From assembly GCF_000702605.1 (NCBI RefSeq), contig NZ_JNIR01000001.1:2346501-2410500 (forward strand): a stretch of DNA of 64,000 bases, written 5' to 3'. Below, piece after piece: positions 10,228 through 62,816 of the stretch. Position 1 is the first letter of the stretch, and every line of letters starts with the position of its first letter. The DNA comes from Exiguobacterium acetylicum DSM 20416. GTDB taxonomy: Bacteria > Bacillota > Bacilli > Exiguobacteriales > Exiguobacteriaceae. Below the pieces are notes generated by a model that did not search any database, was not told the origin of the DNA, and saw nothing but the letters and a program-made list of their open reading frames with translations. The position numbers and the translations under genes were made by a program.

Positions 10228-10380
10228 AAAGACTTGCTATCATTGATCCGACTCCTCCAGGAAAAAGCGCAAATTTTTGCGCTGTCAGAGACAAACAAGA
10301 CCCGGGTTCACTGTTATACGAACAGTGAAGACTGGCTTGTGTCTCGCCTGAGGAAAGCGGGTCAAATGGAGCAAGTCTTT
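10228..10380 (+). ncRNA. Dispersed structured RNA element, copy A (unrecognised family)
   Basis: An 11-bp perfect outer stem (AAAGACTTGCT with AGCAAGTCTTT) continues inward through CATT/AATG and GATCCG/CGGGTC. Inside are P2 (CCTCCAGG, 10254-10261, with CCTGAGG, 10347-10353, one bulged base), hairpin P3 (AGCGCAAA/TTTGCGCT), P4 (GAGACA-aa-CAAG with CTTGTGTCTC) and hairpin P5 (TTCACTGTT/AACAGTGAA). Single-stranded blocks GGAAAA, GTCAG, AAGACCCG and GGAAAG recur in copies B and C. It follows the secreted-protein gene in the same direction and is followed by a T-rich run, so it may also act as a terminator. Function unknown. Confidence 0.75.
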
Positions 10381-21391: not shown

Positions 21392-21532
21392 CGTTTCCTT
21401 TCCAGTTTCAAGGTCATCTGGTTTTACATTTTCTAAACAAATGGGCTGATTTTAGTGGAAATGACAAAAATAATATAGCTCTTTCATGCAAGAAGCTACA
21501 TATACTAGTATTTTATCTTGTTTTGAATTCCT

Positions 21533-21673
21533 CACGCTTCCTTCACCCGCTTTCCTCAGGCGAGACACAAGCCAGGATTCACGTTCCTCCCGGTCCGTGA
21601 ATTCGGGTCTTGTTCGTCTCTGACAGCGCGACAAGTCGCGCTTTTTCCTGTAGGAGTCGGGTGATGACACGTG
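21533..21673 (-). ncRNA. Dispersed structured RNA element, copy B (unrecognised family)
   Basis: On the minus strand the inner P1 stem is CACCCG/CGGGTG, where copy A has GATCCG/CGGGTC, so the pairs change but pairing holds. P2 is CCTACAGG/CCTGAGG, P3 AGCGCGAC/GTCGCGCT, P4 GAGAC-ga-ACAAG/CTTGTGTCTC and P5 ATTCACG/CGTGAAT. The outer stem is short (CACG/CGTG beyond an internal loop). It begins 10 bases after the wecB stop codon in the same orientation. No T run follows, so it is not an ordinary terminator. Confidence 0.75.
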
Positions 21674-21683
21674 CTGTCCTACT

Positions 21684-55117: not shown

Positions 55118-55145
55118 GATCCGCACAGTGGCAGAATCCACTCCA

Positions 55146-55245
55146 CTCATCTCTCAGACATCTGTCTGATGGAATTGGCACAGTGCTCATAATGAGTCTG
55201 TTGCCGAGGTTTCGTAGGGCCAGTCCCTCCACCTCTCTGGATAAG
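55146..55245 (-). promoter_or_regulatory. SAM-I riboswitch (S box) of metNIQ
   Basis: The minus strand reads CTTATCCAGAGAGGTGGAGG, then ACTGGCCCTACGAAACC, TCGGCAACAG, a P3 stem, GTGCCAATTCCATCAG and GAGAGATGAG, all standard S-box landmarks. SAM binding should favour the downstream terminator and lower methionine import. Confidence 0.96.
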
Positions 55246-55309
55246 TATTGCGGTATGAAATTCGTATGTGTGGTGTTGCGTTGTTGCTTATGTCGTAAAA
55301 CTAATTTTT

Positions 55310-55462: not shown

Positions 55463-55498
55463 CGTCTCAATGATTAATCCGACAATTCCAATATGATA

Positions 55499-55596
55499 TT
55501 TATCAAGAGTGAACGAGAGACCTGGCTCTATGACTTCACGGCAACCTGCAATCTGTAAGGTGCTCCGACCAGCAAAGCGCGGCTTTGGATGATACG
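55499..55596 (+). promoter_or_regulatory. SAM-I riboswitch (S box) of an alpha/beta hydrolase gene
   Basis: TTATCAAGAGTGAACGAGAG, CCTGGCTCTATGACTTC, ACGGCAACCTGCA, TGTAAGGTGCTCCGACCAGC and TTTGGATGATA follow the S-box order; TATC and GATA close P1. A terminator stem comes directly after, so this should be an OFF switch at high SAM. Confidence 0.9.
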
Positions 55597-55599
55597 GTG

Positions 55600-60804: not shown

Positions 60805-61572
60805 ATGCATGTCTTAATCACAGGTGCTTCAAGAGGTCTTGGTCGTGAATTCGCTTATCTGCATGCACGACAAGGGGATCACGTCCTGCTCGTCGGACGC
60901 GATGCGACAGCACTCTTCGAAACGAAGTTCCATGTCGAGCGACTCGGTGGAACGGCAACCGTCTTTCCGTATGACTTAACGAAGCGGACGCATCGTCTTG
61001 CACTGTTTCGGGCAACGGAACACATTCCGGTCGACTGCGTCATCAACAATGCTGGAATCGGCGTCTTCGGTTCCTTCCTTGAGACCTCGTTTGAAGACGA
61101 GTCTCGAATGATTGCTTTGAACATCGAAGCATTAACACACGTAACGAAGGTCTATGCCTCTCGCATGAAAGAACAGGGAATCAAAGGACGGATCGTCCAT
61201 CTCGCTTCAACGGCTGCATTTGAAGGTGGTCCATGGCTGAGTGTCTACTACGCGACGAAAGCCTACGTCCTTCATTTCTCGGAAGGATTAACGGAAGAGC
61301 TTGCAGCAGACGGGATTCAAGTCAGCGTCGTCTGTCCGGGCGCGACACATACCGGTTTCGAATCAGCAGCAAACCTTGAACAATCTCGGCTGTTCTTGCG
61401 ACCGGGAGTCATGGATGCTCCGACGGTTGCGCGTATTGCCTACCGCGGCTATATGAAGGGGAAAACGTTCATCGTTCCTGGCTTCGGGAATGCCTGGTAT
61501 ATCTTTTCGACACGTTTTCTACCGCGTCGGTACGTCACCCGACAAGCAGGAGAAGTCCAGCGTCCGCGGTGA
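60805..61572 (+). CDS. Short-chain dehydrogenase/reductase
   Basis: The 255-residue enzyme has the cofactor motif TGASRGLGREFA at residues 6-17, the NNAGIG segment near residue 80, the catalytic Ser in HLASTAAFEGG and the YxxxK pair in YYATKAYVLHFSEGL near residue 149. Absence of an acidic residue after the second strand and Arg in VGRDA hint at NADPH. The substrate is unknown. aaggaggaaatagg precedes the start. RNA element copy C begins 32 bases after its stop. Confidence 0.87.
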   Translation: MHVLITGASRGLGREFAYLHARQGDHVLLVGRDATALFETKFHVERLGGTATVFPYDLTKRTHRLALFRATEHIPVDCVINNAGIGVFGSFLETSFEDESRMIALNIEALTHVTKVYASRMKEQGIKGRIVHLASTAAFEGGPWLSVYYATKAYVLHFSEGLTEELAADGIQVSVVCPGATHTGFESAANLEQSRLFLRPGVMDAPTVARIAYRGYMKGKTFIVPGFGNAWYIFSTRFLPRRYVTRQAGEVQRPR

Positions 61573-61604
61573 TAGTTATAATGTTCATTATTTCAATATT
61601 CATG

Positions 61605-61741
61605 ACGTTCATCCTCAACTCCTACAGGAAAAGGGAACGGGTTCAACGTTTCCGTCAGGGTAAGGTAAGACCCGGCATTTCGCATAAGTTGCGAGATGTC
61701 GCGGCTTACCTCCCGCCTGAGGAAAGTGAGGATATGAACGT
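61605..61741 (+). ncRNA. Dispersed structured RNA element, copy C (unrecognised family)
   Basis: The outer stem is ACGTTCAT plus CCTCA pairing with TGAGG-at-ATGAACGT, unrelated in sequence to the copy A stem but equally complementary. P2 is CCTACAGG/CCTGAGG, P3 GGGAACG/CGTTTCC, P4 GGG-ta-AGGTAAG with CTTACCTCCC, and P5 CATTTCGCA/TGCGAGATG. The blocks ACTCCTACAGGAAAA, GTCAG, AAGACCCG, GGCTT and CGCCTGAGGAAAG match copies A and B. It lies downstream of the SDR gene in the same direction, in a convergent gap before the glpX terminator. Confidence 0.75.
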
Positions 61742-61760
61742 TATCAGTTTTAAACATCAC

Positions 61761-61809
61761 CAAAAAAGAGTTGGCATTCCGGAGATGATCCGGAACGCCA
61801 ACTCTTTTC
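61761..61809. terminator. Terminator of glpX (also reads from plus side)
   Basis: AAAAAGAGTTGGC and GCCAACTCTTTT pair, with an inner TTCCGGA/TCCGGAA pairing. The minus strand ends in six Ts. Confidence 0.9.
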
Positions 61810-61850: not shown

Positions 61851-62816
61851 TTACTTAATGACAAGCTTCGGTTTCTTCTTGAACGAGTGGATACCCTCGA
61901 CAAAGCGAACCGTTCCAGATTTCGCGCGCATGACGACAGAGTGTGTCTGACCGCCTTGCGCCGTGAACTGAACACCTTTCATCAATTCACTGTCCGTGAC
62001 GCCTGTCGCAGCAAAGATACAGTCATCTCCGGCAACGAGGTCGTCCATCATGAGGATCTTCGATGGATCTTCAATGCCCATCTTCTTGCACCGCTCGACT
62101 TCTGCCTCGTCTGCTGGTAACAAGCGTCCTTGGAGCTCACCACCGAGACATTTCAAGGCAACGGCAGCAAGAACGCCTTCCGGTGCACCACCTGAACCGA
62201 GTAAGATATCGATCCCTGTGTGCGGGAATGCCGTATTGATCGCAGCAGCGACGTCACCGTCACCAATCAAGCGAATCCGCGCCCCTGTTGCCCGAATTCG
62301 TTGAATGATCTCTTCATGACGTTCACGATCAAGGATCGAGACGACGACGTCTTCGATTTCCTTGTTCTTCGCCTTCGCGACTGCCGCGATGTTTTCTTCG
62401 ATCGTCGCATCCAGACTGATATGCCCTGCCGCTTCCGGACCGACTGCGATCTTATCCATGTACATATCCGGTGCGTGAAGCAAATCGCCTGCATCCGCGA
62501 CAGCGAGGACAGCAAGTGCGCCCCATGTTCCTTTTGCGACGATGTTCGTTCCTTCAAGCGGATCGACAGCGACGTCGAGTCGTGGTCCATACCCATTTCC
62601 TAGCTTTTCTCCAATGTAAAGCATTGGTGCTTCATCCATCTCGCCTTCCCCGATAACGACGGTTCCTTTCATCGGAATCGTATCGAAGACGTCACGCATT
62701 GCGCTTGTTGCCGCGTCATCCGCTTCATTCTTCAATCCTTTTCCCATCCAACGCGCAGAGGCAAGCGCTGCTGCCTCCGTGACGCGTACAAGTTCCATTG
62801 ATAGACTTCTCTCCAT
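61851..62816 (-). CDS. glpX: Fructose-1,6-bisphosphatase class II (GlpX)
   Basis: The 321-residue gluconeogenic enzyme removes the 1-phosphate of fructose-1,6-bisphosphate. It has the metal-binding [16 protein letters not shown] near residue 56, [11 protein letters not shown] near residue 81 and [16 protein letters not shown] near residue 183, the GlpX signatures. The start follows gagagggga. The rho-glpX-murZ order is as in B. subtilis, except that the NlpC and SDR genes now separate rho and glpX. Confidence 0.94.

Follow-up and report, generated by a model that had tools for sequence, protein, structure and literature searches.

Copy C, an element of 137 nt in the window (the whole analysed stretch, 64,000 nucleotides of Exiguobacterium acetylicum DSM 20416), belongs to a family of dispersed hairpin repeats that is spread across the Bacilli and that, in its own genome and genus, lies mostly between convergent genes. 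Its members combine a branched core with a closing stem, P1, whose two arms pair within a copy and not between copies of different groups, covary in sequence and enclose a core that is found turned around in place at orthologous sites of related species. We lean toward the view that this is a gene-end hairpin repeat whose arms stay complementary through arm-to-arm template switching combined with selection for stem stability, and that the same process flips the element.

The element in copy C and its relatives in the genome

The 3.28-Mb genome holds 24 full copies, copy C among them (Table 1). In the folded form, P1 with its 13 pairs is followed by P2, the hairpin P3 and, as a long arm, P4/P5; the 137 nt fold at -70.6 kcal/mol, compared with a shuffle mean of -37.9 kcal/mol, and none of 200 shuffles folds as well. 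A covariance model based on 11 of the copies has 26 matches in the source genome, 24 of them full, with the weak and unparsed L045 and L046 excluded from the count, and the covariance-model match to copy C reaches 115.3 bits on a stretch equal to window positions 61597-61748. Copies A, B and C have in common the motifs CTCC.ACAGGAAAA (CTCCTCCAGG in copy A), GTCAG, AAGACCCG, GGCTT and GCCTGAGGAAAG.

Table 1. Positions of the element copies and of neighbouring features in the window
Feature	Position	Strand	Remarks
Copy A with own P1	10228-10380 (core 10251-10357)	+	
Copy B with own P1	about 21528-21678	-	
Short-chain dehydrogenase gene, left of copy C	60805-61572	+	Pfam adh_short
Copy C	61605-61741	+	
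Copy C, P1 5' arm	61605-61617	+	ACGTTCATCCTCA; 13 pairs in the minimum-energy fold, arm-swap test
Copy C, conserved core	61618-61726	+	P2, A-rich junction, P3 hairpin, GTCA, P4/P5, AAG
Copy C, P1 3' arm	61727-61741	+	TGAGG at 61727-61731 and ATGAACGT at 61734-61741
Terminator-like hairpin, simple, bidirectional	61764-61808		Adjoins copy C and the glpX 3' end; read from sequence
glpX-type fructose-1,6-bisphosphatase gene, right of copy C, convergent	61851-62816	-	Pfam FBPase_glpX

The 24 copies are of two kinds. Thirteen (kind i) have nearly one and the same P1, GAATGACGCGTC..CACGCC / GGCGTG..GACGCGTCATTC, and most of these sit within a larger unit that comprises a second hairpin and GGCTGACTCA/TGAGTCAG ends, while the other 11 (kind ii), copies A and C among them, have stems of their own. 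Copy C forms one group with L042, L043 and L044, which are related in both stem and core. Terminal repeats agree from copy to copy among the 13 kind-i copies and, as GTTGATT/AATCAAC, among many Bacillaceae copies, but not among the 11 kind-ii copies.

The kind-i end has 16 matches in the own genome with two mismatches allowed, and the matches inspected comprise element copies, a lone terminator-like hairpin and seemingly gene-internal matches. A role of these sequences as insertion-sequence ends found no support, with no transposase identified near the inspected matches, where Pfam was applied to the ORF left of L032 and gave a dynamin-like protein. At L305:1490-1530 the kind-i end occurs by itself, in the form of a simple terminator-like hairpin (GAGGCTGACTTATGCGTCAGCCTC), which hints that these ends could be stems of terminators as opposed to ends of a transposon. 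Next to the element, or fused with it, there is also another hairpin repeat, CGCTTCCTAGGGAAAAACAAGCAGG..GCGACCCTGCA..GCGCGATGCTTGTCCCAGGAAAACGATTCG, resulting in mosaics (L091/L092, L141 and L021/L023/L306).

Closing stems change in sequence and stay paired

An earlier reading made from the sequence only had proposed that copy C closes with a stem altogether different from that of copy A and equally complementary. This is borne out: the two stems are unrelated in sequence, copy C forms 13 pairs against 11 perfect pairs in copy A (AAAGACTTGCT at 10228-10238 with AGCAAGTCTTT at 10370-10380), and the arms of copy C pair with each other at -19.6 kcal/mol, and none of 40 exchanges for arms from other groups does as well. 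The copy C stem had been drawn with a gap on both sides, but what is present is a bulge of two nucleotides (61732-61733) on the 3' side only. The stem does not, however, differ in every copy: 13 copies share one that is nearly constant, and the stem type of copy C is common to L042, L043 and L044, so the contrast between copies A and C separates groups and not just loci.

Across the 11 kind-ii copies, the arms form their own duplex at a mean of -22.3 kcal/mol versus -10.4 kcal/mol for swaps between groups. The Bacillaceae forms behave alike, with -21.2 versus -10.6 kcal/mol for the eight distinct arm types that were retained from 62 parsed elements, though one of these (L152) is hardly better than its swaps, two of seven being as good. 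In the alignment of the 11 copies, both sides have changed at 17 of 36 pairs, compared with 6.4 in shuffles and 0 of 500 shuffles reaching 17, and P1 contributes changes of this kind at five of its seven pairs. The stem at locus A can moreover be followed between species, from AAGACTTGC/GCAAGTCTT in G000 over GAGGCTTGC/GCAAGCCTT in G010 to GAGGCTTGC/GCAAGCCTC in G002, so that two A-T pairs have become G-C, and G010 shows a G-T intermediate. This intermediate also fits a stepwise compensatory change without template switching.

The unpaired junction nucleotides (AAAA, GTCA, AAG and the A bulge preceding CC) hardly vary and make up the most conserved columns, with a mean conservation of 0.935 over 19 columns versus 0.63 for the pairs of P1, P3 and P5 in 44 clusters; conservation and mispairs were counted on either 98 distinct rows of 105 or these 44 clusters. 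As a test for an RNA strand, the mispairs of P1 reveal no preference for G-U over A-C (14 versus 20), which is what one would predict were pairing important in DNA or on both strands, while P4 gives a weak signal (28 G-U versus 10 A-C).

Position at gene ends

Eighteen of the 24 copies in the own genome lie between convergent genes when assigned by hand (19 by automatic ORF calling, which miscalls copy B), as do 18 of the 28 copies placed in further genomes of the genus, and none of these 52 copies lies between divergent genes. The baseline of 259 gaps of at least 80 bases, taken from the window and 40 fetched stretches, includes 41 convergent and 61 divergent ones. Of 108 Bacillaceae-type copies, 21 lie between convergent genes, 56 between codirectional and 9 between divergent ones, while 17 fall within called ORFs and 5 are unresolved; the gaps of these stretches are convergent in 73 cases, codirectional in 290 and divergent in 93. 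The convergent bias of these copies is weak, and this counts against the reading that we favour. Copy A and the kind-i copies have a T-run after the stem, a feature of intrinsic terminators, whereas none was found directly after P1 of copy C when the sequence was read. Copy C instead adjoins a separate terminator-like hairpin, which is present at this site in relatives as well, and both observations weaken the favoured reading further.

Inversion in place and element-free sites

Orientation was compared at 11 loci of the own genome; at two of them, B and L043, it could not be settled that the relatives hold the same copy, and neither enters the count of inversions. At four loci clearly, and at a fifth probably, the element is turned around at the orthologous site of another species. 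The cores at locus A lie on the opposite strand in G011 and G016, with 99.1% and 92.5% identity to copy A, respectively, and G017 has an inverted core at locus C that is 76.1% identical to copy C (70.2% for the next best copy), while other relatives hold only collapsed remnants of the inverted form there. Inverted cores are likewise found at L033 (91.7% in G016, 88.9% in G001) and at L036 (88.2% in G001). At L031, the whole kind-i unit is reversed in G001; copy identity rests on its place in this case because kind-i cores are so alike (94.2% versus 92.4% for the next copy). Orientation is unchanged wherever the element is present at L028, L030, L040 and L042, and a Bacillaceae-type element beside L028/L030 has opposite orientations in G001 and G011.

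The alignment at locus A shows that what the two orientations share is the core together with roughly six bases of the inner part of P1, whereas the inverted forms have new outer arms on both sides that, judged by eye, still pair. Outer arms that are wholly different in the two orientations are seen at A, L033 and L036, and this weakens the favoured reading because a single flip within P1 does not explain it; outer-arm renewal at these loci may need several template switches or a recombinational replacement of the intergenic region.

Species also differ in whether the element is present at orthologous sites. No sequence resembling P1 beyond what shuffles give was detected in nine element-free genome-sites at loci A, C, L042, L031 and L040, and element-free stretches of these five loci, folded for one genome each, all form a strong and simple terminator-like hairpin. 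We found no target-site duplication, and since the element-free sites differ across the whole terminator region, no clean empty site was seen in which one could be sought.

Distribution in the Bacilli

The family was found in all 19 genomes of the genus with 12 to 130 copies each, and this tenfold range (12 in G009, 99 in G007 and 130 in G015) suggests recent bursts. The first model gave weak matches in a sister genus, where 12 of 19 genomes match, and in other families of Bacilli. At least 120 stretches of named genomes match the exact pattern GACTCCTRCNGGAAAAGCG; nearly all of the 80 matches listed are from what we take to be Bacillaceae, Planococcaceae or Sporolactobacillus relatives. A wider model was made from 14 sequences, namely 13 such pattern matches and one Bacillaceae-type copy of G001, and the invariance of its 5' block is partly due to the retrieval by pattern. 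This wider form occurs in 81 of 299 Bacilli genomes and 26 of 118 genera, with 11 to 114 copies per genome in the ten genomes counted, and many Bacillaceae copies have GTTGATT/AATCAAC ends. In a draw of 299 genomes from the phylum, five match, three of which are Bacilli; the matches in the other two are marginal fragments, and a spread beyond the Bacilli was rejected accordingly.

Plasmids carry the element too, with 17 records from Bacilli genera matching a Lederbergia copy and none matching copy A or a kind-i unit, while no match to copy A or a Lederbergia copy was found in a phage collection. One carrier is very small, a Planococcus plasmid record of 1566 bases with a copy at NZ_CP025132.1:1008-1121. 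Tandem copies about 185-340 bases apart are seen in Peribacillus and a related Bacillus among the matches listed (L176, L190, L215 and L228).

Possible origins of the changing stem

Template switching between short inverted repeats reportedly makes their arms alike and turns the spacer around (PMC8604942), and it can create RNA stems as well as maintain them (PMC8794818). In the reading toward which we lean, a conserved branched core under sequence-specific constraint would lie inside a closing stem that is free to change in sequence as long as its arms pair. The closed hairpin at gene 3' ends would most likely be a putative gene-end element working on both strands, which might block read-through and protect 3' ends beside or instead of ordinary terminators. 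Arm-to-arm template switching and selection against a broken stem would keep the arms complementary, and the same switching would turn the core around in place, with the core itself serving perhaps in protein binding or as a retained mobility signal. From the footprints of template switching, the lack of a G-U bias in P1 and the conserved junctions, we infer that P1 is kept by arm correction together with selection for a stable gene-end hairpin and that the core is constrained in its sequence. Selection on pairing, as proposed from the sequence, thus holds insofar as pairing is kept between copies (17 of 36 pairs) and across species at locus A, but selection on RNA pairing is not the sole reading since the element is inverted in place and template switching would yield both the matching of arms and the inversion of the spacer.

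It is conceivable, though we would not expect it, that the invariant core is recognised as a folded nucleic acid by a host or mobile protein that moves and inverts the element, in which case the arms would be rewritten together by template switching and the closing stem made in place, neither inherited nor taken from a target hairpin. If true, a protein-recognised core with arms rewritten in place would be a test bed for compensatory stem changes produced by replication errors and not by selection alone. A functional RNA is usually proved by the covariation of its stems, yet in this family the stems covary across copies and loci while the element also flips, so that a mutational cause may lie behind the same data. 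Tens of copies in each genome, and a genus represented by 19 species, make selection on pairing separable from arm-to-arm correction.

We consider it rather unlikely that the element is a trans- or cis-acting structured RNA or a protein-binding motif with a functional core and P1 as its closing helix under ordinary RNA-pairing selection. Such an RNA would account for the almost invariant junction nucleotides, the covariation in the stems and the excess of G-U over A-C mispairs in P4, but it sits poorly with tens to more than 100 similar copies per genome that have no fixed gene neighbour and are often inverted relative to the neighbouring genes, with a P1 that has no G-U preference, and with the lack of any Rfam match above threshold.

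We also doubt that the family is a small MITE-like mobile element with hairpin ends and a borrowed transposase that picks up or rewrites its closing stem, even though its 12 to 130 copies per genome in the genus, its variable presence at orthologous sites, its occurrence on Bacilli plasmids, the larger kind-i unit with its own ends and the GTTGATT/AATCAAC ends of many Bacillaceae copies would all suit this idea. Speaking against it, neither a target-site duplication nor, at the kind-i end matches inspected, a matching full insertion sequence was found, and no clean empty site was seen among the element-free sites. The sequence-only reading had argued against terminal inverted repeats from the differing stems; this argument is weakened because most copies share one stem and kind i lies inside a unit with its own repeated ends. 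Its other suggestion, that the core inserts into existing terminator hairpins and that P1 is the stem of the target, is very improbable and not supported. In its favour, element-free sites at L031 and L040 have a simple terminator-like hairpin in the place that the element takes in relatives, with short arm pieces GAGC/GCTCC flanking the L040 hairpin in G001. Against it, nine element-free genome-sites of five loci show no trace of P1, kind i brings the same P1 to every site, and copies C and A lie beside and not inside the local terminator-like hairpin.

Relation to known repeats and RNA families

REP, ERIC and Efa are dispersed structured intergenic repeats, and REP and Efa favour the 3' ends of genes. 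What sets the element apart from all three is a branched core with junctions that do not vary, enclosed by a stem that differs between groups and loci, and we know of no sequence relation to any of them. In chloroplasts, small hairpin-loop inversions turn the loop between short inverted repeats in place, much as a segment is turned in place here, but these are single loops whereas the element is a dispersed bacterial repeat family. Bhal-1 comes from a stem-loop survey that is reportedly the one of Cozzuto et al. 2008. As far as the excerpted text of that survey goes (PMC2267715), Bhal-1 is a stem-loop family of Bacillus halodurans with 36 copies of 74 bp that is intergenic and structured like the element, whose core, counted from GACTCC through GGAAAGC, is about as long, but the closing stem and the inversion are absent from the Bhal-1 description, by which alone the two were compared. 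Bhal-1 is perhaps the same core, an identity guessed from this description, and its name was not found elsewhere in the literature searched. The same excerpt describes bcr1 of Bacillus cereus, a repeat of 147-167 bp with features of a mobile element (PMC2267715), which by description resembles the element in size and in belonging to the Bacillaceae, and an excerpt of PMC1590033 names the REP, ERIC and Efa repeats. A full-text search for core strings of the element returned no paper. The kind of element, a dispersed structured gene-end repeat, is thus already known, and what is new within the literature searched is the combination of locus-varying closing stems and in-place inversion across the Bacilli.

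No family of Rfam 15 matches the element at the gathering threshold, and the distant relatives L075-L080 gave only an unrelated L21 leader. The molybdenum cofactor riboswitch (RF01055) was the best match and was rejected, with copy C scoring 14.9 bits (E 0.39) versus a gathering threshold of 36 bits. A large structured repeat family that is absent from Rfam 15 could be used for annotating gene ends in Bacilli. The matches of the window at the gathering threshold are an FMN riboswitch, two SAM riboswitches and an L31 leader only, and the two SAM riboswitches stand back to back, 250 bases apart, at 55144-55247 (-) and 55497-55598 (+).
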